NCBI GenBank assembly: GCA_022702125.1
Contig: JAKOND010000234.1
Coordinates: 1 to 37,049 of the forward strand
Direction of reading: 5' to 3'
Origin: Burkholderiaceae bacterium
GTDB taxonomy: Bacteria; Pseudomonadota; Gammaproteobacteria; Burkholderiales; Burkholderiaceae_C
DNA length: 37,049 nucleotides
Shown here: one piece after another, positions 4,686 through 26,444 of the stretch
How positions within the stretch are numbered: the stretch's first letter is position 1
How the letters are laid out: each line of letters opens with the position of its first letter
Made by a program: the position numbers and the translations under genes
The notes under the pieces: generated by a model
Told to the model about the DNA's origin: nothing
What the model saw: the letters and a program-made list of their open reading frames with translations, nothing else
The model's database searches: none

Positions 4686-5876
4686 TCAGAACCTGTGCAG
4701 GATTCCCAGCTGCACGCCGTTGATGTTGCGGCCGTTGACGTCCGATCCGCTGGTGAAGTTGGACTTCAGCGCGCCCGAGCCGGCCAGCCGGAAGCCGGCG
4801 TTGTCGTCGTTGCGGATCGTCTCCGCAAGCGCGATCAGCGTGGTGCGCTTGGACAGGTCGTAGTAGGCGCCGAGGGCGCCGCCGTTGGCGTTGCGGCCGC
4901 TGCCCGAGCGGTCCTGGATGCGGCCCCAGAGCCCGCCGATGCGCAGCTGCTCGGTCACCCGGTAGTCGGCCGACAGCTGCCAGATGTGGTACATGCGGTT
5001 GACGTCGGGGTTGGTGCCCGCCACCACGCCGCCGACGTTGCCCAGGATGGAGGCGCCGTTGTTGATGGTGGTGGCGCTGGCGCCGGTGCCGGTCGTGGCG
5101 GAGGTGCTGTTGTTGCTGCGCACGAAGGCCAGGTAGACCGTGCCCCGGCCGTAGAGCCAGTTGGCGAAGACGTTGTCGTAGACCACGTCGCGGCCGAAGG
5201 GCGCGTTGGCCGGCGGACGGCCGCGCAGGCCGGCGTAGCCGAGCCGGGCGAACTCGTTCTGCCAGTCCAGGCCCGCCTGCCAGACCGCCTGGCGCGCCAC
5301 GCCGCCGACCGTCTCGGGGAAGGAGAAGTGCACCTCGCCGAGCACGCCGGCGATGCGCGGGGATATATAGGAGACGGTGTTGTCGTAGCGCGAGGGCACG
5401 CCGAAGCTGTTGATCACCGAGCCCAGCGTGCGGGTGGTGAAGTCGATGTAGCCGCCGCGCGCGAAGATCGGGCCGTTCTGCCGGCCCAGGCGCACCTCGC
5501 CGAGCGAGGCCGAGTACAGGCCGGCCCAGGCCTGGCGGTCGAACAGGCGGCTGCCGTCGGCCTGCCCGCCGGTGTCGGTGCTGAAGCCGTTCTCCAGCTG
5601 GAACTTCGCCGCGTAGCCGCCGCCCAGGTCCTCGGTGCCGCGCATGCCGATGCGGCTGCGCAGCAGGCTGCCGTCCTCCAGCGCGGTGACGTGGGTGCCC
5701 GAGCTGCTGCGCATGTGATTGACGTACTGGTCGAGCGAGCCGTAGAGCACGACGGCCGAGCCGGTGCTCGGCGACGGGGTCTGGGCCGAGGCGCCGACGG
5801 CGGCGCCGGCGAGCGCCGCGGCCAGGGCGAGGCGCCGCGCGGCGGACGGAGCGGGGGCGGAACGGGGCGATGGCAT
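4686..5876 (-). CDS. General porin, Omp32-like trimeric outer-membrane channel
   Basis: A 396-residue precursor of a 16-strand beta-barrel porin of the Comamonas/Neisseria type, allowing passive diffusion of small anionic or neutral solutes across the outer membrane. The start at 5876 is chosen because a GGAGGAG ribosome site lies just upstream and a signal peptide follows (Arg-rich n-region, LALAAALAGAAVGASAQ core). Mature-protein features include VLYGSLDQYV at the first strand, SRIGMRGTEDLGGGY, the long constriction-loop region with SLGEVRLGRQNGPIF, and the C-terminal GILHRF ending in Phe, the BAM recognition signal. The frame extends 49 codons further upstream, but that part lacks a ribosome site and signal features. 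It is monocistronic, with minC upstream of its 3' end. Confidence 0.93.
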   Translation of the reverse strand: MPSPRSAPAPSAARRLALAAALAGAAVGASAQTPSPSTGSAVVLYGSLDQYVNHMRSSSGTHVTALEDGSLLRSRIGMRGTEDLGGGYAAKFQLENGFSTDTGGQADGSRLFDRQAWAGLYSASLGEVRLGRQNGPIFARGGYIDFTTRTLGSVINSFGVPSRYDNTVSYISPRIAGVLGEVHFSFPETVGGVARQAVWQAGLDWQNEFARLGYAGLRGRPPANAPFGRDVVYDNVFANWLYGRGTVYLAFVRSNNSTSATTGTGASATTINNGASILGNVGGVVAGTNPDVNRMYHIWQLSADYRVTEQLRIGGLWGRIQDRSGSGRNANGGALGAYYDLSKRTTLIALAETIRNDDNAGFRLAGSGALKSNFTSGSDVNGRNINGVQLGILHRF

Positions 5877-6081
5877 GGGGGTCTCCTCCGGGATCGGTCT
5901 AGTGTGGATGTCGAGTGTGAAGAACAGGTGGCACGGCACGGCCGGCGCGCGTGCGGACGCCGCCGGGGCCGCCAGCGCTGCCTGGGCCGGTCGCCACGAT
6001 ACGGACACTGCGGCACGTGGCACAACACCGGGTTTCCGGCAATTGATCGATCAGCGCACGGCCGGGCGCGATCAGCGGACA

Positions 6082-6168: not shown

Positions 6169-6984
6169 TCAGACCAGGCTGCGCATCGCCTGGGCCGTCT
6201 CGCGCAGCACCGGCAGCACCCGGGCGACCGCGTCCTCGCTGCTTTCGTGCCCCATCGGCATGGTGACGTTGAGCGCGCCGACCAGCAGGCCGTGGCGGTC
6301 GCGCAACGGCACCGCGATGCCGCGCGAGTTGAGGTCGAGCTGCTGCTCGGACAGCGCCCAGCCCTGGCTGCGGATGCGGGCCAGCTCGACGCGCATCCGG
6401 TCCTTGCTGGCGATGGTGTGGGGCGTGAAGACGCGCAGGTCGCGGGTGGCGAGCCAGTGCTCCCGGTCGGCGTCCTCGCGCAGGGCCAGCATCAGCATGC
6501 CGGCGGCGGTGACCTGCGCCGGCACGCGGGCGCCCAGCACGTAGCCGGTGTTCATGTTGCGGTTGGGGCCGTTGCGGGCGATGTAGACCACCTCGTCGCC
6601 GTCGGCCACGCTCAGGTAGGCGATCTCGTGGGTGCCGAGGGCCACCCGCTGCAGGAAGGGCTGCACGATGCGCGGCAGCCGGGCCGACTCCAGGTAGGAC
6701 TGCCCCAGCCGCAGCACCCGCGGCGTGAGCCAGAAGAGCTTGCCGTCGCTGGCCACGTAGCCCAGGTGGCGCAGGGTCAGCAGGTAGCGCCGCGCGGCGG
6801 TGCGGGTCATGCCGGTGCGCTCGCCGGCCTCGCTGGCGGTCATGCGCGGATGCGCGTCGTCGAAGGCCACCAGCACGTCCAGACCGCGCTCCAGCCCGGC
6901 GATCCAGTCGCGGCGGTCGAGCTGGCGGTCCGGTTCGGGCAGGTCGGACGGGCGGGTCGATACGGGGCGGTCGTCGGTGTCCAT
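6169..6984 (-). CDS. IclR-family transcriptional regulator (PcaR/PobR-like)
   Basis: A 271-residue IclR-type regulator. The N-terminal winged helix (about residues 22-85) contains RGLDVLVAFDDAHPRMTASE and MTRTAARRYLLTLRHLGYV, as in the aromatic-acid regulators PcaR, PcaU and PobR. The C-terminal effector-binding GAF-like domain carries SVADGDEVVYIAR, GARVPAQVTAAGMLMLA and a final LNVTMPMG block. The ATG at 6984 is preferred over 7116: the longer start would place 44 residues of atypical sequence, and the divergent operator, inside the coding region. It is transcribed away from two AroE-like genes, a PcaB-like lyase and a dehydroquinase, so it probably controls them with a cyclic acid or its product as effector. 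The family is certain; the effector is inferred. Confidence 0.93.
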   Translation of the reverse strand: MDTDDRPVSTRPSDLPEPDRQLDRRDWIAGLERGLDVLVAFDDAHPRMTASEAGERTGMTRTAARRYLLTLRHLGYVASDGKLFWLTPRVLRLGQSYLESARLPRIVQPFLQRVALGTHEIAYLSVADGDEVVYIARNGPNRNMNTGYVLGARVPAQVTAAGMLMLALREDADREHWLATRDLRVFTPHTIASKDRMRVELARIRSQGWALSEQQLDLNSRGIAVPLRDRHGLLVGALNVTMPMGHESSEDAVARVLPVLRETAQAMRSLV

Positions 6985-7186: not shown

Positions 7187-8110
7187 ATGACGCATTCCAT
7201 CCACGGCTCCACCGACCTGTACCTGATCCCCGGCGACCCGGTGACCAACGTCCGCGCGCCCCGGATGTTCAACGCGGTGTTCGCCCGCTGCGGCATCGAC
7301 GCGGTGATGGTGCCGGTGCAGGTGCCGGTGCGCGACATCGCGGTCTTCATGCGCACCGCCTTCCTCGCCCGCAACCTGCGCGGCATGGTGATCGGGCCGC
7401 CGCACAAGCCCCGGGTGCTGGACATGCTCGACGGCTACAGCGTCTTCGGCCGGGTGGCGCGCTCGGTCAACGCGGTGCGCCGCACCGCCGACGGCCAGCT
7501 CGAGGGCGACCTGTTCGACGGCGAGGGCTTCACCGAGGCGCTGGACCATTTCGGCATCCCGTACCGCGGCAAGCGGGTGCTGGTGCTGGGCGCGGGCGTG
7601 AGCGCCGCGGCCATCGGGCTGGCGCTGGCCGACGGCGGCACGGTCGACGGCGCGGCGCAGATCGCCTTCTTCGATCCGGTGGCCGGCCGCGCGGCTGGGC
7701 TGGCGGCCCAGCTCGACAGCTATTTCGACGCCGAGGTGGCGGCGGCGGACACCAACGACCCGGCCGGCTACGACGTGGTGGTCAACGCCACGCCGCTCGG
7801 CCTGCGGCCGGACGACGCCCTACCCTGCGACGTGGGCCGCCTGGACGGCCACGCGGCGGTGTTCGACATCCTGCTGCGCGGCCAGCCGACGCCGCTGGTG
7901 CGGGCGGCGCGGGCGCGCGGCCTGCATGCCCAGCCGGGCTTCGAGATGCTGGTGCAGCAGACGCCCTACTACCTCGACTACTTCGGCTACCCCGAGGCCG
8001 CCGCGGCGGTGCGCGAGGACGCCGACTTCCTGCGCGAACTCATCTACCCCGACGCCCTGCGCGGCGAGATCGCCGACCCGCCGCGCTACCGCTCGGCCAG
8101 CGTCGGCTGA
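7187..8110 (+). CDS. Shikimate/quinate dehydrogenase-like protein (AroE family), paralogue 1
   Basis: A 307-residue AroE-family NAD(P)-dependent polyol-acid dehydrogenase. The catalytic lysine is in GPPHKPRV (about residue 69) and the catalytic aspartate in GDLFDGEGF (near 110). The Rossmann glycine loop is VLGAGVSAAA (near 133), and VVNATPLGL (near 201) is the family signature. FEMLVQQ keeps the C-terminal glutamine. Departures from true AroE: the SKSP motif that binds the substrate carboxylate reads VRAP, so both serines are lost, and the residue after the second Rossmann strand is acidic (FFDP) instead of the NRT arginine, suggesting NAD over NADP. About 30 extra C-terminal residues follow. 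It is the first gene of a five-gene catabolic-looking block opposite an IclR regulator. A biosynthetic role is unlikely; the substrate may be quinate, shikimate or another hydroxylated ring acid. Confidence 0.85.
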   Translation: MTHSIHGSTDLYLIPGDPVTNVRAPRMFNAVFARCGIDAVMVPVQVPVRDIAVFMRTAFLARNLRGMVIGPPHKPRVLDMLDGYSVFGRVARSVNAVRRTADGQLEGDLFDGEGFTEALDHFGIPYRGKRVLVLGAGVSAAAIGLALADGGTVDGAAQIAFFDPVAGRAAGLAAQLDSYFDAEVAAADTNDPAGYDVVVNATPLGLRPDDALPCDVGRLDGHAAVFDILLRGQPTPLVRAARARGLHAQPGFEMLVQQTPYYLDYFGYPEAAAAVREDADFLRELIYPDALRGEIADPPRYRSASVG

Positions 8111-8169
8111 CCGGCGCCCCCGCCCCCTCCGACCCTTCCTCTTCCCCTCCTCCGAAAGCGACCCCTCCC

Positions 8170-9000
8170 ATGCTCAGCGGCAAGACCACCCTCATCGCCC
8201 ACATCGGCTGGCCCACCGAGAGTTTCAAGGCGCCGCTGATCTACAACCCGTGGTTCGACCAGCGCGGCATCGACGCGGCGGTGATCCCGCTGGGCGTCAA
8301 GCCCGAGGAGTACCGCGCCTTCCTGCCGCTGCTGTTCCGCATGTCCAACATCCGCGGCGCGCTGGTGACCATGCCGCACAAGGTCACCACGATGGAGCTG
8401 GTCGACGAGGCCACGCCCACCGCCCGCATCGCCGGCGCGGCCAACGCCATCCTGCTGCGGCCCGACGGCACGCTGCTGGGCGACCAGTTCGACGGCGCGG
8501 GCTTCGTGCGCGGCGTGGCGCGCAAGGGCCACCGGATCGAAGGCAGCCGGGCGCTCGTATCGGGCAGCGGCGGCGTGGGCTCGGCCATCGCCGCCTCGCT
8601 GGCGGCCGCCGGCGTGGCCGAGCTGGCGCTGTTCGACCTGAACGCCGCCTCCTGCGAGGCGCTGGCCGCGCGGCTGCGCGAGCACTACCCGCGGCTCGTC
8701 GTCACCACCGGCTCGATCGACCCGGCGGGCTTCGACCTGGTCGTCAACGCCACCCCGCTGGGCATGAAGGACGGCGACCCGCTGCCCTTCGACGTGGACC
8801 GCATCGCGCCCGCCACCTTCGTCGGCGAGGTGGTGATGAAGTCCACCTGGACGCCGCTGCTGCAGGCCGCCCGCGCCAAGGGCTGCCCGGTGCAGGTGGG
8901 CACCGATATGCTGTTCGAGATGATCCCGGCCTACCTGGAGTTCTTCGGCTTCGGCAGCGCCACGCCCGAGGAACTGCGGGCGGTGGCCCGGCTCGGCTGA
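8170..9000 (+). CDS. Shikimate dehydrogenase-like protein (AroE family), paralogue 2
   Basis: A 276-residue second AroE-family protein starting at ATG 8170, 59 bp after paralogue 1. Catalytic Lys is in VTMPHKVTTM (about residue 66) and Asp in GDQFDGAGF (near 107). The glycine loop is SGSGGVGSAI (near 136) and VVNATPLGM is near 194. Like paralogue 1, its SKSP-equivalent (FKAP) lacks both carboxylate-binding serines, and an Asp (LFDLN) replaces the NADP-selective Arg. Unlike paralogue 1, the C-terminal Gln position is Met (GTDMLFEM). The two copies are clearly divergent, so they are not a recent duplication and probably use different substrates or stereoisomers. NAD-linked oxidation in a degradative pathway is the best guess. 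Confidence 0.85.
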   Translation: MLSGKTTLIAHIGWPTESFKAPLIYNPWFDQRGIDAAVIPLGVKPEEYRAFLPLLFRMSNIRGALVTMPHKVTTMELVDEATPTARIAGAANAILLRPDGTLLGDQFDGAGFVRGVARKGHRIEGSRALVSGSGGVGSAIAASLAAAGVAELALFDLNAASCEALAARLREHYPRLVVTTGSIDPAGFDLVVNATPLGMKDGDPLPFDVDRIAPATFVGEVVMKSTWTPLLQAARAKGCPVQVGTDMLFEMIPAYLEFFGFGSATPEELRAVARLG

Positions 9001-9023
9001 GACGGCCCGCCCCCGCACCCGTT

Positions 9024-9040
9024 GCTGCGAAATCGATAGC
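9024..9040. repeat. Short intergenic palindromic repeat, copy 1
   Basis: GCTGCGAAATCGATAGC lies in the gap between the second AroE-like gene and the lyase. It shares 13 of 17 positions with the sequence at 10913-10929 and ends in the same CGATAGC. From memory, related GCTAnnnnnnnnnTAGC elements are common between genes in Comamonadaceae; I could not check this against other genomes. Confidence 0.3.
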
Positions 9041-9091
9041 TGCCAACGAAGACGGCATCTCCGCATTCCCTCAAAAACCTTCCCCATCGCC

Positions 9092-10309
9092 ATGACCTTC
9101 TTCGAGGGATTCCTCTCCACCCCCGAGGCGCTCGACGCCACCAGCGACCGCAGCTTCGTGGCCGCCATGCTGCGCTTCGAGGCGGCGCTGGTCCGGGCGC
9201 AGGCCCGCGCCGGGCTGATCTCCGAGGAGGCGGCGCAGTCCATCGTCGGCACCTGCAAGGTCGAGCTGTTCGACGTCGCCCGCATCGTGCGCGACAGCGG
9301 CCGCGCCGGCAGCGCCGCCATTCCGCTGGTCAAGGCGCTCAAGGAGACGGTCGGCCTGTTCAATCCGGCGGCGGTCGCGGACACGCACCGGGGCAGCACC
9401 AGCCAGGACGTGATCGACACCGCCGCCGCGCTGGTGACGCGGCCGGTGCTGGACCTGGTCGTCGCCGACACCCGGCGCATCCTCGACGCGCTGCTCGACC
9501 TGGCCGGGCGGCACGCCGACGACCCGGTGCTGGCGCGCACCCTGGGCCAGCCGGGCTCGGTGACCAGCTTCGGCTGGAAATGCGCGCAGTGGGCGGCGCC
9601 GCTGGCGCGCGGCCTGCTGCGCCTGCGGGCCGCGGCCGCGCCGGCGCTGGCGGTGCAGCTCGGCGGCGCGGTCGGCACCCAGGCGCAGCTCGGCGGCAAG
9701 GGCCCCGAGATCGTCGCGCTGATGGCGGCCGACCTCGGCCTGGCCGCGCCCGACGCGCCCTGGCACACCCAGCGCGACGTCTGGGTGGCGCTGGGCTGCG
9801 AGATCGGCATCCTGGTCGGCAGCCTCGGCAAGATCGCCACCGACCTGGCGCTGATGGGCCAGTACGAGGTGCGCGAGCTGGCCGAGCCGTCGGAGCCCGG
9901 CCGCGGCGGATCGAGCGCGATGCCGCACAAGCGCAACCCGGTCGGCGCGATGGTGGCGCTGGCCGCCGCCAAGCGCGCGCCGCAGCGGGTGGCCGGCCTG
10001 CTCGCCGCGATGCCGCAGGAGCACGAGCGCGCGCTCGGCGCCTGGCAGGCCGAACTCGCCGAATGGCCGCAGCTGCTGCTGTCGGCCCACGGCGCGGCCC
10101 GCGCGCTGGCCTCGGCGGTGCCGGGCCTGCAGGTGGACACGGCCCGCATGCGCGCCAACCTCGACACGCTGCGCGCCGAACTGCCGGCCGCCGCCGCCGA
10201 CGAATGGTTCGACCCGGCGCTGGCCCGGCACGCCGGCGACCTGGCGCGCGCCCAGGTCGCGCGGCTGCGCGCGGCGCTGGCCGGCCTGCAGGCCCCCGGC
10301 GGCGCCTGA
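9092..10309 (+). CDS. 3-carboxy-cis,cis-muconate cycloisomerase-like lyase (fumarase/aspartase superfamily)
   Basis: A 405-residue member of the aspartase/fumarase superfamily, closest by eye to PcaB, which lactonises beta-carboxymuconate in the protocatechuate branch of the beta-ketoadipate pathway. The N-terminal [16 protein letters not shown], the catalytic-region motif [12 protein letters not shown] (about residues 94-105), WHTQRD, and the flexible-loop signature [11 protein letters not shown] (near 273) followed by AAMPQEHER are all present. PcaB proteins I know are about 450 residues; this one ends roughly 45 residues earlier, and the C-terminal helical part is shortened. No ribosome site is evident; the ATG at 9092 is supported by the family-like N-terminus. 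It sits between AroE-like genes and a dehydroquinase, so it could supply the PcaB step or act on a related dicarboxylate. Confidence 0.85.
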
Positions 10310-10371
10310 GCCTCCCGTCCGCCCGCGTCCGCGCGGCGGTCCCCGTCCTTCCCCCTTTGGAGATCCTGCCC

Positions 10372-10821
10372 GTGAAAACCGTCCTCGTCCTCAACGGCCC
10401 CAACCTCAACCTGCTCGGCACCCGCGAGCCCGCCGTCTACGGCTCGGCCACGCTCGCCGACGTCGAGGCGATGTGCGTCGAGGCCTGCGCCCGGCACGAC
10501 TTCGCGCTCGACTTCCGCCAGAGCAACCACGAGGGCCAGCTGGTCGACTGGCTGCACGAGGCCGGCCGCGCCCAGGCCGCCGGCACCCTGGCCGGCGCGG
10601 TGTTCAACGCCGGCGCCTACACCCACACCAGCGTGGCGCTGCACGACGCGATCAAGGGCACCGGCCTGACGCTGATCGAGCTGCACATCTCCAACGTCCA
10701 CGCCCGCGAGGCCTTCCGCCACCACTCCTACCTGTCGCCGGCCGCCAAGGCGGTGATGGCCGGTTTCGGCGTGGCGGGCTACCCGCTGGCCATCGCCGGG
10801 CTGGCGCAGATGCAGGGCTGA
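10372..10821 (+). CDS. aroQ: Type II 3-dehydroquinate dehydratase
   Basis: A 149-residue type II dehydroquinase, the normal length, forming dodecamers that interconvert 3-dehydroquinate and 3-dehydroshikimate. The motifs are complete: [17 protein letters not shown] (residues 8-24, with the active-site loop Arg and Tyr), [25 protein letters not shown], and [12 protein letters not shown] with the Glu/His pair. The start is a GTG at 10372 with GGAG at 10359-10362 just upstream. It is the last gene of the IclR-controlled block, 62 bp after the lyase. Type II enzymes serve in either direction; next to AroE-like dehydrogenases and a PcaB-like lyase a catabolic (QuiB-like) role is more likely than aromatic amino acid synthesis. 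Confidence 0.95.
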
Positions 10822-11092: not shown

Positions 11093-12586
11093 ATGAATTT
11101 GCAATCCATCGACGCCCGCACCGGCCAACCCCACGGCGAGAGCTGGCCCGAGTCCACCCCCGCCGAGATCGACGCGGCGGCCGCCGCCGCCGCCCAGGCG
11201 GCCGATGCCTTCGCCGCCACCAGCGCCGCCGACCGCGCCGCGCTGCTGCGCGACCTGGCCGCTGCGCTCGAAGCGCAGCGCGAGACGCTCGTGCCGCTGG
11301 CCGACCGCGAGAGCGGCCTCGGCCCGGTGCGCCTCAACGGCGAACTCGACCGCACCGCCTTCCAGCTGCGCGGCTTCGCCGACGTGCTGGAGCGCGGCGA
11401 GGCGCATGCCTTCGTCGACGACGCGGCCGTCGCCGGCGCGCCGCCCGCCGGCCGTCCGCGCCTGACCCGGGTGCGGGTGCCGGTCGGCCCGGTCGCGATG
11501 TTCTCGGCCAGCAACTTCCCGTTCGCCTTCTCGGTGCTCGGCGGCGACACCGCCTCGGCGCTGGCCGCCGGCTGCCCGGTGGTGGTCAAGGGCCATCCGG
11601 CGCATCCGGAACTCTCGCGCCGCACCGCGGCGCTGGCGCAGGAGGCGGTGGCCGCGCGCGGCCTGCCGGCCGGCGTGTTCCAGTTCGTGCAGGGCGGCTC
11701 GGTCGCGGTCGGTGTGCACCTGACCCAGGCCCCGGCCATCGCCGCCGTCGCCTTCACCGGCTCGTTCAAGGGCGGCACCGCGCTGGCCAAGGTCGCGGCC
11801 GAGCGTCCGCGCCCGATCCCCTTCTACGGCGAACTCGGCTCGGTCAACCCGCTGGTCGCGCTGCCCGCCGCGCTGGAGCAGAACGGCCCGGCGCTGGCCG
11901 AGACGCTGGCCGGCTCGATCTGCCTGGGCAGCGGCCAGTTCTGCACCAGCCCCGGCGTGATCGTGGTCATGAAGGACGCCGCGGGCGACGCCTTCGTGCG
12001 GACCCTGGCCGAGAAGCTGCAGGCCCTCAGCCCGCATGCGATGCTGTCGGCCGGCATCCGCGGCACCTTCGACAAGGGCGTGGCGGCCTGGCGCGGCCAC
12101 GGCAAGCTCCGGGTGCTGGTCGACGGCGCCGGCGACACGGCCCCGGGCGCCGCCCCCCGTCCCTTCCTGGCCGAGGTGCAGGCCGCCGACTTCGTCGCCG
12201 ACCATGCGCTGCACGAGGAAGTCTTCGGATCCGCCGCGCTGGTGGTGCGGGTCGCCTCGACGGCCGAGGCGATCGACGTGCTGCGCGCCGTCGGCGGCTC
12301 GCTGACGGTCACGCTCTGGGGCGTGCCGGCCGGCGATGCCGCGCCCGGCGCCGACATCCTCGACCTGGTGCGCGCGGCGGCCCGGGTGTCCGGCCGGGTG
12401 CTGTTCTCGGGCGTTCCCACCGGCGTGGCGGTCACCGCCGCGCAGCAGCACGGCGGCCCGTTCCCGGCCTCGACCGCGCCCTTCACCACCTCGGTCGGCT
12501 ACGCGGCGCTCGACCGCTTCCTGCGCCCGGTGGCGCTGCAGGACGCGCCGGCCTGGCTGCTGGCGCGCCAGGGCGTGCCGGTCTGA
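11093..12586 (+). CDS. NADP-type aldehyde dehydrogenase, alpha-ketoglutaric semialdehyde dehydrogenase-like
   Basis: A 497-residue cytosolic aldehyde dehydrogenase. It oxidises an aldehyde to the acid through a cysteine thioester. The catalytic cysteine is in GSGQFCTSPG (about residue 287), the general base Glu in PFYGELGSVNP (near 247), and the N-terminal oxyanion/cofactor block is FSASNFPFAFSVLGGDTASA (near 137). VVVKGHPAHP and AFTGSFKGG bind the cofactor. These variants match the 2,5-dioxovalerate (alpha-ketoglutaric semialdehyde) group used in glucarate, arabinose or hydroxyproline degradation, rather than betaine or phenylacetaldehyde enzymes. AGGAC lies upstream of the ATG at 11093. It is 271 bp from the dehydroquinase and has its own terminator, so it is probably a separate unit. 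No sugar-acid dehydratase is adjacent, so the pathway cannot be fixed. Confidence 0.88.
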   Translation: MNLQSIDARTGQPHGESWPESTPAEIDAAAAAAAQAADAFAATSAADRAALLRDLAAALEAQRETLVPLADRESGLGPVRLNGELDRTAFQLRGFADVLERGEAHAFVDDAAVAGAPPAGRPRLTRVRVPVGPVAMFSASNFPFAFSVLGGDTASALAAGCPVVVKGHPAHPELSRRTAALAQEAVAARGLPAGVFQFVQGGSVAVGVHLTQAPAIAAVAFTGSFKGGTALAKVAAERPRPIPFYGELGSVNPLVALPAALEQNGPALAETLAGSICLGSGQFCTSPGVIVVMKDAAGDAFVRTLAEKLQALSPHAMLSAGIRGTFDKGVAAWRGHGKLRVLVDGAGDTAPGAAPRPFLAEVQAADFVADHALHEEVFGSAALVVRVASTAEAIDVLRAVGGSLTVTLWGVPAGDAAPGADILDLVRAAARVSGRVLFSGVPTGVAVTAAQQHGGPFPASTAPFTTSVGYAALDRFLRPVALQDAPAWLLARQGVPV

Positions 12587-22171: not shown

Positions 22172-24610
22172 TCAGAACGCGCCGCGCAGGGTCAGCAGCA
22201 CGTTGCGCGGGTTGCCGTAGTAACTGCCGTTGACCAGCGCCGTGACCGAGGTGTAGTACCGCTTGTCGAAGACGTTGTTGACATTGAGAGCCGCGGCCCA
22301 GTGGCGGTTGATCCGGTAGCGGACCAGGGCGTTCCACACCGCCCGGCCTTCGACATCGGCGCGCGCGGCGCCGATCTGCCGGAAGCTGGCGCTCTGGGCG
22401 TTGACGCCGCCGCCGACGGTGAGGGCGTGCAGTTCCCCGGGCAACTGGTAGGTGGTCCACAGGCGAAGCATGTGCCGGGGGGTGTAGCTGTTGAAGGCCT
22501 GGCCCTGGCTGCCGACGTCCTGCAGGTATTTGGTCTGGGTGAAGGTGTAGCCGCTGAAGACCTTGAGGCGGGGCGCGATTTCGCCGCTGATCTCGGCATC
22601 CGCCCCCTGGCTGCGCACCTTGCCGGTGTCGGTGTAGCAGTAGTAGCCGCTGCGGCAGGTGGGGCCGGTGGTGAAGTCTTCCTGGGCGCGGTGCTTCTGG
22701 TCGATGCGGAAGAGCGCGAAGGCGGCGTTGGCCCTGCCGTCCAGCAGCTCGCCCTTGAGGCCGGCCTCGTAGTTGGCGCCGGTCATGGGCTTGAGCAGCG
22801 CGCCCGAGGCGGTCTGCTCGGTCTGCGGCTTGAAGATGTCGGCGTAGCTGACGTAGCCCGACCACTGCGGGTTCAGCGCGTAGATCAGCCCCGCGTACGG
22901 ATTGACCTTGGCGTTCTCGTCGCTGCGGCTGGACGAGGTGCTGGGCGCGGCGCCGGTGGTGACGGTGTCCCACTCGGTGCGGAACCAGCTCACGCGGGCG
23001 CCGACCACCAGCCGGAGCGGATCGCTCAGCTGCCAGCGCACCGCGTTGTAGATGCCGAACTGCCGGGCCCGGCCCTGGCGGTCTTCGCGGGTGGCCGCAT
23101 AGATCTGCGCGTCCGTGGGCTCGGCGATGCCGGGATTGTAGCGGCCGAGGGTGAAAATGTTGTAGTTGGTGCGGAAGCCGTAGGTGGTGTCGTTGGCGGC
23201 ACGCGCGTAGTTGGCGCCGCTGACCAGTTCGTGCCGGCGGCCCAGGGCCTCGAAGCTGCCGGTGAGGTTCGCATCCAGCCCGGAGGTCTCGATGTCGGCG
23301 AGGGAGCGCGCCACGATGTTGGCGCTCTGCATCAGGCGCGGACTGACCGCGCGGTTCACGCCCGCGTACTTCATGTCGAGGTCTTCCGTGATGCGCACAC
23401 CGGTCAGCTTGAGCTTCCAGTCGTTGTCGAAGCGGTGCGAGACGTCGAAGTACAGGCTGCGGTTGTCGCTCTCCCGGCGGTTCCAGGTGGCGCCCAGGTA
23501 GGTGGAGCGCGCCAGGCGCAGGTCGGTCCCGTCGGCATAGCGCGGCAGGCCGTTCAGGAAGGGGCGTCCCCGCTGCGCCTCCAACCCGAAGCCGACGTTG
23601 GCCTGGGTGGCCGGCGAGAGGTCGTACTCCACGGTGCCGTAGGCGGTGGTGTTGCGGCGGTTCACGTAGTCGACGAACCCGTGCTCGTCGTCGTGGTCGA
23701 GGAGCACCCGGCCGCGCAGCGAGCCGTCCTCGTTGAGCACCCGGTTGATGTCGACCTGCCCGCCGTAGCGGTCCCAGGAGCCGGCCCGCGCCTCGACCGC
23801 GACGGCGTTGTACCGCAGGGGGCGCTTGCGCACCAGGTTCACCGCGCCGCCGGGGCTGCCCTCGCCCTGCAGCAGGCCCGCCGCGCCGCGCAGCACCTCC
23901 ACCCGGTCGATGGCGGCCAGGTTGGCGCCGTAGTTGCTGGCCCGGCCGTACAGGCCTCGGTTCAGCGGCACGCCGTCGTTCTGCACCGTGGTCAGGTCGA
24001 AGCCGCGCGAGTAGATGTACATGCCGCCCTGCGGGCTCTGCGTCACCACCACGCCGGTGGTGCTGGCCAGCGCCTCGTAGATGGAGCCGAGGTTCTGCTC
24101 GTCCATCAGCTGGCGCGTCACCACGCTGACGGACTGCGGGATGTCCTTGAGCGCCTGCTCGCCCTTGCCGACGGTGACGACCCGGGCGGCGTAGCGGCCC
24201 GTGTGCTCGGTCGCGGCGCCGCCCTCGGCGTCGGCCACCACGGTGACCGGCGCCAGCGTCATCGCGCCCTGCGCGCCGGCGGCCGCCCGCCGGACGACGA
24301 CCGCGCGGCCGTCGATCTCGGCCACCAGTCCGCTGCCGGCGAGCAGGCGGCCCAGCGCCTCGCGCGGCGTCAGGCGGCCCTCCACCGCAGGCGCGGTGCG
24401 GCCTTCGACGAGGCTCGGCAGCACCATCAGCTCCAGGCGGGCCTGCCGGGCCAGGGCGTCCAGCGCCTGGGCCAGGGGCTGCGCGGCGATGCGGATGTCC
24501 ATCGCCGCCGGGGCTGCGGCGGCCGCCGCGCCGGTCTGGCCGTGCGCGGACAGGGTGCCCAGCGCCAGGGCGACGGCCAGGGCGAGCGGAACGGGACGGG
24601 AACGGGGCAT
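22172..24610 (-). CDS. TonB-dependent siderophore receptor with STN signalling domain
   Basis: An 812-residue FpvA/FoxA-like transducer-receptor. After the signal peptide (LALAVALALGTLSAHGQ) comes the STN secretin/TonB N-terminal domain (about residues 36-108: DIRIAAQPLAQALDALARQA, GRLTPREALGRLLAGSGL). This domain contacts FecR in the periplasm. The TonB box is TLAPVTVVAD. The plug carries LKDIPQSVSVVTRQLMDEQN, YIYSRGFDLTTVQNDGVPL, VEVLRGAAGLLQGEGSPGG and AVNLVRKRP. The barrel ends in NVNNVFDKRYY and RGAF with terminal Phe. Together with the FecR and sigma genes upstream it forms a complete cell-surface signalling set. FpvA-like sequences suggest a hydroxamate or mixed siderophore, often a xenosiderophore, but the ligand is not readable. 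Confidence 0.95.
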   Translation of the reverse strand: MPRSRPVPLALAVALALGTLSAHGQTGAAAAAAPAAMDIRIAAQPLAQALDALARQARLELMVLPSLVEGRTAPAVEGRLTPREALGRLLAGSGLVAEIDGRAVVVRRAAAGAQGAMTLAPVTVVADAEGGAATEHTGRYAARVVTVGKGEQALKDIPQSVSVVTRQLMDEQNLGSIYEALASTTGVVVTQSPQGGMYIYSRGFDLTTVQNDGVPLNRGLYGRASNYGANLAAIDRVEVLRGAAGLLQGEGSPGGAVNLVRKRPLRYNAVAVEARAGSWDRYGGQVDINRVLNEDGSLRGRVLLDHDDEHGFVDYVNRRNTTAYGTVEYDLSPATQANVGFGLEAQRGRPFLNGLPRYADGTDLRLARSTYLGATWNRRESDNRSLYFDVSHRFDNDWKLKLTGVRITEDLDMKYAGVNRAVSPRLMQSANIVARSLADIETSGLDANLTGSFEALGRRHELVSGANYARAANDTTYGFRTNYNIFTLGRYNPGIAEPTDAQIYAATREDRQGRARQFGIYNAVRWQLSDPLRLVVGARVSWFRTEWDTVTTGAAPSTSSSRSDENAKVNPYAGLIYALNPQWSGYVSYADIFKPQTEQTASGALLKPMTGANYEAGLKGELLDGRANAAFALFRIDQKHRAQEDFTTGPTCRSGYYCYTDTGKVRSQGADAEISGEIAPRLKVFSGYTFTQTKYLQDVGSQGQAFNSYTPRHMLRLWTTYQLPGELHALTVGGGVNAQSASFRQIGAARADVEGRAVWNALVRYRINRHWAAALNVNNVFDKRYYTSVTALVNGSYYGNPRNVLLTLRGAF

Positions 24611-24712
24611 GCGGACGATCTCCGGGAAGGATGGGAATGGGAAGCCTTCTCAGGTAGACGCACCACGCGCCCGCACCCCCACCCCGTCCGCCCTCTTTTT
24701 CTCGCGCCCGGC

Positions 24713-25777
24713 TCAGCGCGCGGCCTGGATCGCCTGGATCTCCACCAATGGCCCTGCGCCGTGCAGGCGCACCGGGAGCACCCGGGGCAGCGCCTGCCGG
24801 AAGTGGGCGGGCCGCAGCGGGTCGAAGGTGCCGGTCACCCGCATCGCGGCGACCGCCGGATCTCGCACCCGCAGGCCGGTGGCTCCGTAGCGCTCGAACT
24901 CGGCCAGCGCCTGCGCCAGCGGCACGTCGTCGAAGAAGATGCGGCCGTCGCGCCAGGGCGCGATGCCCGCCGGCGGCACCGCGGACACGGGCGAGAGGAG
25001 GCCGGCCGCATCGGCGCCCAGCTGCTGGCCCGCGCCCAGCTCGACAGCCGGCGCCGCGGACTCCGCGCCGCCCGAGACGCGCACGCGCCCCCGGTCCACC
25101 GCCACCCGGACGCCGCCCGCGCCCGGAACGCCCGCGGTGTGGCGCACCGAGAACCGGGTGCCCACCACGGTGACCTTCACCGCGCCGGCCAGCACGTCGA
25201 AGGGGCGGGCCGCGTCACCCTGCACCTGGAACAGCACCTGGCCTTCGGTCAGGCGCACTTCGCGGCGCTGCCGGTACAGCGTGACCGCGATGCGGGTGGC
25301 CGTGTCCAGCCGCAGGCGGCTGCCGTCGGGAAGCGCCAGGTCGAGCTGCTGGCCGCGGGCGCTGGCGAAGTCCTGCCGGAAGACCGGTTGCCGCTGCCAG
25401 CGGTCCCATGCCAGGTAGCCGCCGCCGGTCGCCGACAGGAGCCCGGCCGCCAGCCCCGCCGGCGGCACCAGCGAGGACAGCCGGGCCAGCCACCGCCGGC
25501 GGCCGGGCCGGGCTGGCGCCGCTGCCGCTGCGGCGGCCTGGTCCTTCGCCAGTTGCCGGCGCAGCCGGTCCACGGCGCTTTCGGGCAGGCCGTCGAGCCG
25601 CGCCCAGTCCCGCTGCCAGCGGGCGAACGCCGCCCGATGCGCCGGACTGGCCGCGAGCCAGGCCTGCAGCTCGGCCGGGACCGGTCCGCCGGCGCCGTGG
25701 TCCAGGCGCGCGAACCGGGCCAGCGCCTCGGCATCGAGGGCGTCCTGGGAGGAGCGGGCGGACGGGGTGTCGGTCAT
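24713..25777 (-). CDS. FecR-family anti-sigma/sigma regulator
   Basis: A 354-residue single-pass inner-membrane FecR protein. The N-terminal DUF4880-like cytoplasmic part (about residues 14-60: ALARFARLDHGAGG, LAASPAHRAAFARWQRDWAR) binds the ECF sigma factor. A hydrophobic segment near 98-118 (VPPAGLAAGLLSATGGGYLA) crosses the membrane. The periplasmic FecR domain carries LPDGSRLRLDTATRIAV, VRLTEGQVLFQV, and VTVVGTRFSVR. The C-terminal STN-like part, RIFFDDVPLAQALAEFERY, contacts the receptor. The ATG at 25777 is the first Met before the DUF4880 region; the longer frame is a read-through from an overlapping unrelated frame. It lies 79 bp after the sigma gene and 102 bp before the receptor. 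Confidence 0.93.
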   Translation of the reverse strand: MTDTPSARSSQDALDAEALARFARLDHGAGGPVPAELQAWLAASPAHRAAFARWQRDWARLDGLPESAVDRLRRQLAKDQAAAAAAAPARPGRRRWLARLSSLVPPAGLAAGLLSATGGGYLAWDRWQRQPVFRQDFASARGQQLDLALPDGSRLRLDTATRIAVTLYRQRREVRLTEGQVLFQVQGDAARPFDVLAGAVKVTVVGTRFSVRHTAGVPGAGGVRVAVDRGRVRVSGGAESAAPAVELGAGQQLGADAAGLLSPVSAVPPAGIAPWRDGRIFFDDVPLAQALAEFERYGATGLRVRDPAVAAMRVTGTFDPLRPAHFRQALPRVLPVRLHGAGPLVEIQAIQAAR

Positions 25778-25856
25778 GCGGATCGGGAAGGCTGCAAGGT
25801 GGTGGACGCGCGAGCCCGTGCCCGCCCCCACCTCCCCCGCGAAAGAAAAAGCCGGC

Positions 25857-26444
25857 TCATGCCCGGTCCGCCCCCGTGCCGCCGCTCGCGGGGGGCGCGA
25901 TGCCGTCCAGCCGGTCCTGGCAGGCGCGGCAGGCCCGCATGCCCTGCTGGATGTGCCGCTCCACCATCGACACGGAGATGGCCATCCGCCGCGCGACCTC
26001 GGCCTGCGACAGGCCGTCGAACTTGTGCAGGATGAAGGCCTCGCGGCACCGCAGCGGCAGCGCGCCGATGGTCTCCAGCATCGCGTCGACCGTCTGCGAC
26101 GACATGGCCGCGACCTCCGGCTGCCAGGCCGATGGCGCCGGGAGCGGATCGGCGGCCTCGTCCGCATCGGGCGCGTGGTGCCGGCCGCGCACTTCGCTGC
26201 GGCGGTGCCGGTCGATCACCAGGTTGCGCGCGGTGCGGTAGAGCAAGGCCCGTGGCTCCTCGATGGTCGGCCCCGACCGCTGCACCGCCAGGACCCGGGC
26301 GTAGCTTTCCTGGGTCAGGTCGGCCGCGGCATCGCGATCCTTGACGGCGCCCTGCAGGAACCTCAGGAGTTCACGGTAATAGCGGGCGACCACGGGGAGG
26401 AAGGGGAAGGAGGATGCGCGCGCCGCCCGGGGGAAACGGGGCAC
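25857..26444 (-). CDS. ECF RNA polymerase sigma factor, FecI-like
   Basis: A sigma-70 ECF factor of about 180-195 residues. Region 2 is YYRELLRFLQGAVKDRDAAADLTQESYARVLA, shown here as YYRELLRFLQ then DRDAAADLTQESYARVL, with RALLYRTARNLVIDRHRR (2.3-2.4). Region 4 is ETIGALPLRCREAFILHKFD and GLSQAEVARRMAISVSMVER, the -35-binding helix-turn-helix. The start is uncertain: ATG 26501, GTG 26444 and GTG 26393 are all in frame and none has a good ribosome site. The ATG at 26501 would place a Fur-like palindrome (26480-26494) inside the coding region, so a downstream GTG is preferred. It heads the sigma-FecR-receptor-PepSY-DUF3649 series. The sigma factor probably transcribes the receptor once FecR signals siderophore binding. 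Confidence 0.88.
   Translation of the reverse strand: MPRFPRAARASSFPFLPVVARYYRELLRFLQGAVKDRDAAADLTQESYARVLAVQRSGPTIEEPRALLYRTARNLVIDRHRRSEVRGRHHAPDADEAADPLPAPSAWQPEVAAMSSQTVDAMLETIGALPLRCREAFILHKFDGLSQAEVARRMAISVSMVERHIQQGMRACRACQDRLDGIAPPASGGTGADRA

Follow-up and report, generated by a model that had tools for sequence, protein, structure and literature searches.

Two AroE-family genes in a predicted catabolic operon

The window, by which we mean the whole stretch of 37,049 nucleotides that was analysed, is one entire contig from a draft assembly of 4.68 Mb, and it contains two tandem genes, here called A and B, that encode proteins of the AroE family (Table 1). Third-position GC is 0.97 in each, which identifies both as real genes, and B begins at the ATG at 8170, the 1078-aa open reading frame that starts at 5764 being only a mechanical upstream extension of it. 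Both proteins match Shikimate_dh_N (PF08501) above the Pfam cut-off and combine this domain with a Rossmann domain and the catalytic Lys and Asp of the family; with TIGR00507 the two window proteins score 120.5 and 127.8 bits, under the cut-off of 200.2. Structurally, the AlphaFold models of A (pLDDT 90.5) and B (pLDDT 93.1) both have 4k28 as their best Foldseek match (TM 0.89/0.92 for B), and the second-best fold match of A is the 5-ketofructose reductase 7cok. A and B are 36% identical and fall into two deep clades, so that a recent tandem duplication is rejected, as the original prediction had held from the divergence of the two copies.

The genes are ordered as a divergent IclR regulator gene of the PcaR type followed by A-B-pcaB-aroQ on one strand, with gaps of 59, 91 and about 65 bp between the four. 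The aroQ gene probably starts at the GTG at 10375, and the frames of the regulator and the porin can be extended to 7116 and 6023, respectively. The porin is a possible uptake route and may belong to the same regulon; of the 20 loci of group B, 4 have a related porin. Beyond aroQ lies an aldehyde dehydrogenase gene (11093-12586) whose best models are those of dioxovalerate and succinate semialdehyde dehydrogenases, far under their cut-offs. Further along, a TonB receptor with an STN domain stands beside a FecR protein (22172-26167), likely a cell-surface-signalled uptake system.

Table 1 Features of the window around genes A and B.
Feature	Position	Strand	Length	Family or supporting match
Gram-negative porin, downstream of the regulator	4686..5939	-		PF13609, E 2.7e-35
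IclR-type regulator, PcaR/PcaU/PobR subfamily	6169..6984	-		TIGR02431, 262.2 bits (below cut-off 284.75)
Protein A	7187..8110	+	307 aa	RifI-like branch of the AroE family, group A; VRAP, FFDP
Protein B	8170..9000	+	276 aa	Group B, sister clade of A; FKAP, LFDL
PcaB-like 3-carboxy-cis,cis-muconate cycloisomerase	9092..10309	+		TIGR02426, 341.1 bits (curated cut-off 355.75); PRK09053, E 8.6e-108
Type II 3-dehydroquinate dehydratase AroQ	10357..10821	+		TIGR01088, 174.1 bits (cut-off 169.85)

Cofactor motif and substrate pocket

A and B were aligned to E. coli AroE, whose residue numbering is used throughout. The NADP motif NRT is replaced by FDP in A (FFDP) and by FDL in B (LFDL), and an Asp in place of this motif indicates NAD+ use (PMC4892741), from which both enzymes are predicted to be NAD+-dependent; 27 of 31 proteins in group A and all 33 in group B have an Asp where AroE has N149.

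In the pocket, the catalytic residues K65, N86 and D102 are retained in both proteins. The SKSP motif of AroE reads VRAP in A (S14 to V, S16 to A) and FKAP in B (S14 to F, S16 to A), and Q244 is kept in A and replaced by Met in B. The original prediction, that both SKSP serines are replaced in both copies, that the catalytic Lys and Asp remain and that B has a Met for a substrate-contacting Gln, is thus borne out at each of these residues. The alignment adds further features that were absent from it: Tyr215 is replaced by Leu in A and by Met in B, Thr61 gives way to Gly in A but stays in B, and both proteins have Tyr at position 248. In the Arabidopsis enzyme, the C1 carboxylate is bound jointly by Ser336, Ser338 and Tyr550 (PMC4892741), and because the positions of all three are hydrophobic in A and B, all three ligands are gone. 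Neither protein therefore has the combination of SxSP and Tyr215 that marks classical AroE and YdiB, and the initial observation holds, in a rather stronger form than was claimed. Plant Gln582 contacts the C5 hydroxyl (PMC4892741); judged by its spacing to the Gln, AroE position 248 would correspond to this residue.

Clades and residue variation

Evolutionarily, groups A and B, found in many genera among the 201 genomes of the family that were searched for relatives, are sister clades (95% SH-aLRT) in a quickly built tree of 95 proteins, none of them from plants, that has several long branches. Their common branch includes 4k28 (99% SH-aLRT) and stands apart from AroE, YdiB, QsuD and SdhL, so that the family placement raised with the original prediction comes out as RifI-like and separate from SdhL.

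The pocket changes are traits of whole clades. All 80 proteins of groups A, B and C (a third RifI-like clade) that have residue 14 carry V or F there, the first Ser being lost across the whole RifI-like branch. In the same sample, residue 16 of group A is either A or L, group B has A in 28 of its 33 proteins and S in the other 5, and group C has S throughout; among 78 close group A relatives, 67 have L at this position, 6 have V and 5 have A. Judging from these sequences, loss of both serines is not unusual for these proteins. Residue 244 in group B is divided almost evenly, 17 of the 33 proteins having M and 16 having Q, and as the second-Ser and Gln changes both vary inside clade B, they alone say little about the substrate. 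Thr61 is kept in 33 of 33 group B proteins and in 14 of 30 scored group A proteins, the close relatives of A carrying Ala, not Gly. The basic residue within x-K/R-x-P is conserved as K or R, sometimes Q in group A.

Comparison with known systems

The RifI-type protein 4k28 of P. putida KT2440, which we take to be of the RifI2 class, is the best sequence match of both A (1.3e-32) and B (1.1e-46). The RifI2 paper is cited in PMC7144000. Like A and B, 4k28 has lost the first Ser, to Val, and has an Asp cofactor motif. However, it keeps the second Ser (VKSP) and has Thr 215 and Leu 248, where A and B have Ala, Leu or Met, and Tyr, and it is shorter at the C-terminus (269 residues against 307 in A). 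A and B thus cluster with 4k28, taken here as the type of the RifI class, but have neither the second Ser of VKSP nor the C-terminal truncation of that class, B being 276 aa long.

The plant NAD+ quinate dehydrogenases (PotQDH and EcQDHa; groups D/E, or II and V) share with A and B the loss of Ser338 and the Asp NAD+ motif, and share with A the loss of Thr381 to Gly, whereas B keeps Thr61. Unlike A and B, they retain Ser336 as well as Tyr550 and have an inactive dehydratase domain, and their relation to A and B is best regarded as analogy, not as a common clade. QsuD of C. glutamicum (3jyo) has the NAD+-type motif, a role in quinate catabolism and a replaced Ser16 (SRTP) in common with the pair, but it is 26.7-28.1% identical to A and B, keeps Ser14 and Tyr215 and lies on a separate branch. 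YdiB (1npd), with its broad quinate/shikimate use, shares the fold and the catalytic Lys and Asp; it keeps SLSP and Tyr215 and is 21.7-29.6% identical to A and B. Ael1 (3pwz) has the family fold and is close to classical AroE, and SdhL (1npy) has the family fold and is likewise without SxSP (NFGT) but sits on another long branch; membership of A and B in either class is rejected by sequence, tree and fold ranks.

Genomic context in the own genome and in relatives

The window itself contains no QuiC. Elsewhere in the own genome, on contigs unlinked to the window in the assembly, a full-length QuiC with 78% identity to a relative's fused DSD-HPPD enzyme lies beside a ShiA-like MFS gene (contig C84), and pcaH scores over its cut-off (contig C122). 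The genome also has four aroQ genes, the window's included, and a PQQ membrane dehydrogenase of the TIGR03074 family.

Among 80 named group A relatives (Variovorax, Xenophilus, Pseudacidovorax, Xylophilus and others), genes counted within about 10 kb included IclR at 78 loci, group B at 68, DSD or QuiC at 62, PcaB at 54 and a ShiA-like MFS transporter at 52. A catabolic cluster is thus apparent both in the window, where aroQ and pcaB are linked to the pair, and in the relatives, where the dehydratase joins them. Group B loci carried AroQ in 11 of 20 and DSD or QuiC in 12 of 20, against DSD or QuiC in 2 of 20 group C control loci, whose shorter flanks of about 6 kb per side lower this last count somewhat. 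Fisher p values for the DSD/QuiC linkage relative to group C were 3.5e-8 for group A and 0.002 for group B, for loci that are not phylogenetically independent. The relatives' clusters also carry shikimate-transporter-like MFS genes, or ABC and TRAP transporters, and their dehydratase is encoded either within a fused QuiC or by a DSD gene that is separate from an HPPD-like one. A search of one literature library for Variovorax quinate/shikimate enzymes returned nothing on point.

Proposed pathway and alternatives

The analysis establishes the gene order, the families, which residues are present, how the clades are arranged, the NAD+-type motif and the conservation of the cluster; the activity of these enzymes, the division of substrates between them and the contacts that replace the lost carboxylate ligands are inferred. 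A and B are probably the NAD+ dehydrogenase pair of quinate/shikimate catabolism, with A leaning to quinate and B leaning to shikimate or dual. The PcaR-type IclR regulator would control the route that the pair opens. One dehydrogenase would oxidize quinate to 3-dehydroquinate, which AroQ of the same operon would convert to 3-dehydroshikimate, and the other would produce 3-dehydroshikimate directly from shikimate; QuiC, encoded elsewhere in the genome, would then form protocatechuate, and ring cleavage and PcaB would carry this into the beta-ketoadipate pathway. The PQQ membrane dehydrogenase could be an alternative for the quinate step.

The division of labour rests on a plant precedent. Loss of the second Ser and of Thr61 is the route from plant shikimate to quinate dehydrogenases (PMC7752791, PMC4892741); the plant change Thr381Gly is enough to confer activity on quinate, which Ser338Gly raises further (PMC7752791). 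In the Arabidopsis structure 2gpt (SKSP ... SCTIPHK), Thr381 aligns with AroE T61, Ser338 with S16 and Lys385 with Lys65. The plant-type change of Thr381 to Gly is present in A only, its relatives having A or T there, and at the Ser338 position both proteins have Ala where the plant change is to Gly. Being changed at T61 as well as at S16, A is the better quinate candidate, and B, with its Thr61, would be the shikimate or dual enzyme. With Ser14, Ser16 and Tyr215 lost, the C1 end of the pocket would gain space and lose polarity, which in part resembles the plant quinate dehydrogenases, although the parallel is incomplete, since those enzymes retain both Ser336 and Tyr550. The Lys or Arg of x-K/R-x-P and the conserved Tyr 248 are candidates for the contacts that take over.

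This assignment of roles is weak, because B is more often beside aroQ than A, QsuD has Thr61, and within group A the state of Thr61 and aroQ do not track one another. The same pathway with the roles swapped (B for quinate, A for shikimate), or with both enzymes dual and of differing affinity, is a serious though less probable division of the roles, a judgement that concerns only the split. B adjoins aroQ in many loci that have group B only, which would argue for quinate as its substrate in spite of its Thr61; and as QsuD, a characterised bacterial quinate dehydrogenase, keeps Thr at this position, loss of Thr61 is not required for quinate activity. Against the swap stand the alteration of A at both positions that favour quinate in plants and the invariance of Thr61 in group B. 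Loss of Thr61 was also considered as a marker of quinate clusters and rejected, AroQ occurring at 7 of 82 group A loci with a small residue at position 61 and at 0 of 8 with Thr, too few to tell.

More distant substrates had been favoured at the outset. The original prediction was of two active dehydrogenases with changed substrates; the intactness and conservation of both dehydrogenases and the rebuilding of their substrate pocket are supported, but the unfamiliar substrates give way before the quinate/shikimate-to-protocatechuate clusters and the plant quinate precedent. Following that precedent at T61 and S16, a substrate change, if any, would most simply be one between shikimate and quinate. 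That the pair acts instead on different alicyclic hydroxy acids, or on stereoisomers (for example epi-quinate, dihydroshikimate or an ester), with the nearby quinate genes using the product after further steps, appears unlikely: the joint loss of Ser14, Ser16 and Tyr215 would suit it, as would the presence in the family of a sugar enzyme, the 5-ketofructose reductase that ranks second among the fold matches of A, but the way in which AroQ, DSD/QuiC, PcaB and a shikimate-type transporter stay linked to the pair speaks against an exotic substrate, and so do the lability of residue 16 in clade B and the retention of Thr61, Lys65, Asn86 and Asp102 in B. Aminoshikimate-type RifI enzymes of a biosynthetic, ansamycin-like pathway would account for 4k28 being both the nearest solved structure and a tree neighbour; this reading is very improbable, as none of the genes annotated in the window is for aminoshikimate biosynthesis, the surrounding functions are catabolic, and the S16 and Tyr-248 states are unlike those of 4k28. 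Less likely than not is that groups A and B represent a class of AroE-family dehydrogenases, so far uncharacterised, that binds quinate and shikimate in the absence of all three known carboxylate ligands through another anchor, the basic residue of x-K/R-x-P together with Tyr248, or that uses a related cyclic polyol acid still undescribed as a growth substrate.

Quinate and shikimate are abundant plant acids, and the pair, as a probable route of quinate/shikimate catabolism, appears to be their NAD+ entry point in a large set of Comamonadaceae associated with plants and soil, one that curated annotation family models fail to separate from shikimate dehydrogenase. The interest lies in the uncharacterised pocket of a widespread enzyme pair, with quinate/shikimate catabolism mostly replacing the inference of an exotic substrate. 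The right pathway combined with a pocket without any known carboxylate ligand offers a clean test of how this family recognizes acid substrates, and also of whether bacteria and plants gained quinate specificity through the same two positions.

Related clusters and gene variants

Many relatives encode the two domains of QuiC, dehydratase and HPPD-like, in separate genes (L039:3171-3998 and L035:9637-10506), which lie side by side in several of them; other relatives have the fused form. The relatives' quinate/shikimate clusters repeatedly include a Gfo/Idh/MocA dehydrogenase whose best model, iolG, scores under its cut-off (L041:18288-19376, L085, L094, L097, L102 and L226). A second type of cluster combines a classical AroE (SKSP or TKSP) with a CaiB-type CoA-transferase and AroQ (L041:802-3023, L096, L097 and L100), in relatives also with TRAP transporter genes, and in the own genome AroE, CaiB and AroQ on contig C169 (L112) are part of this type. 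Group C (L127-L143, L046:5367) has VKSP, Thr 215, Val 244 and Met 248; it is common in the same family and seldom has DSD/QuiC nearby, and 8 of 20 of its loci include a gene for a Gfo/Idh-type dehydrogenase. One group A gene (L042, about 8863-9781; G088:C7:72862-73780) extends over two overlapping frames, a frameshift or sequencing error.
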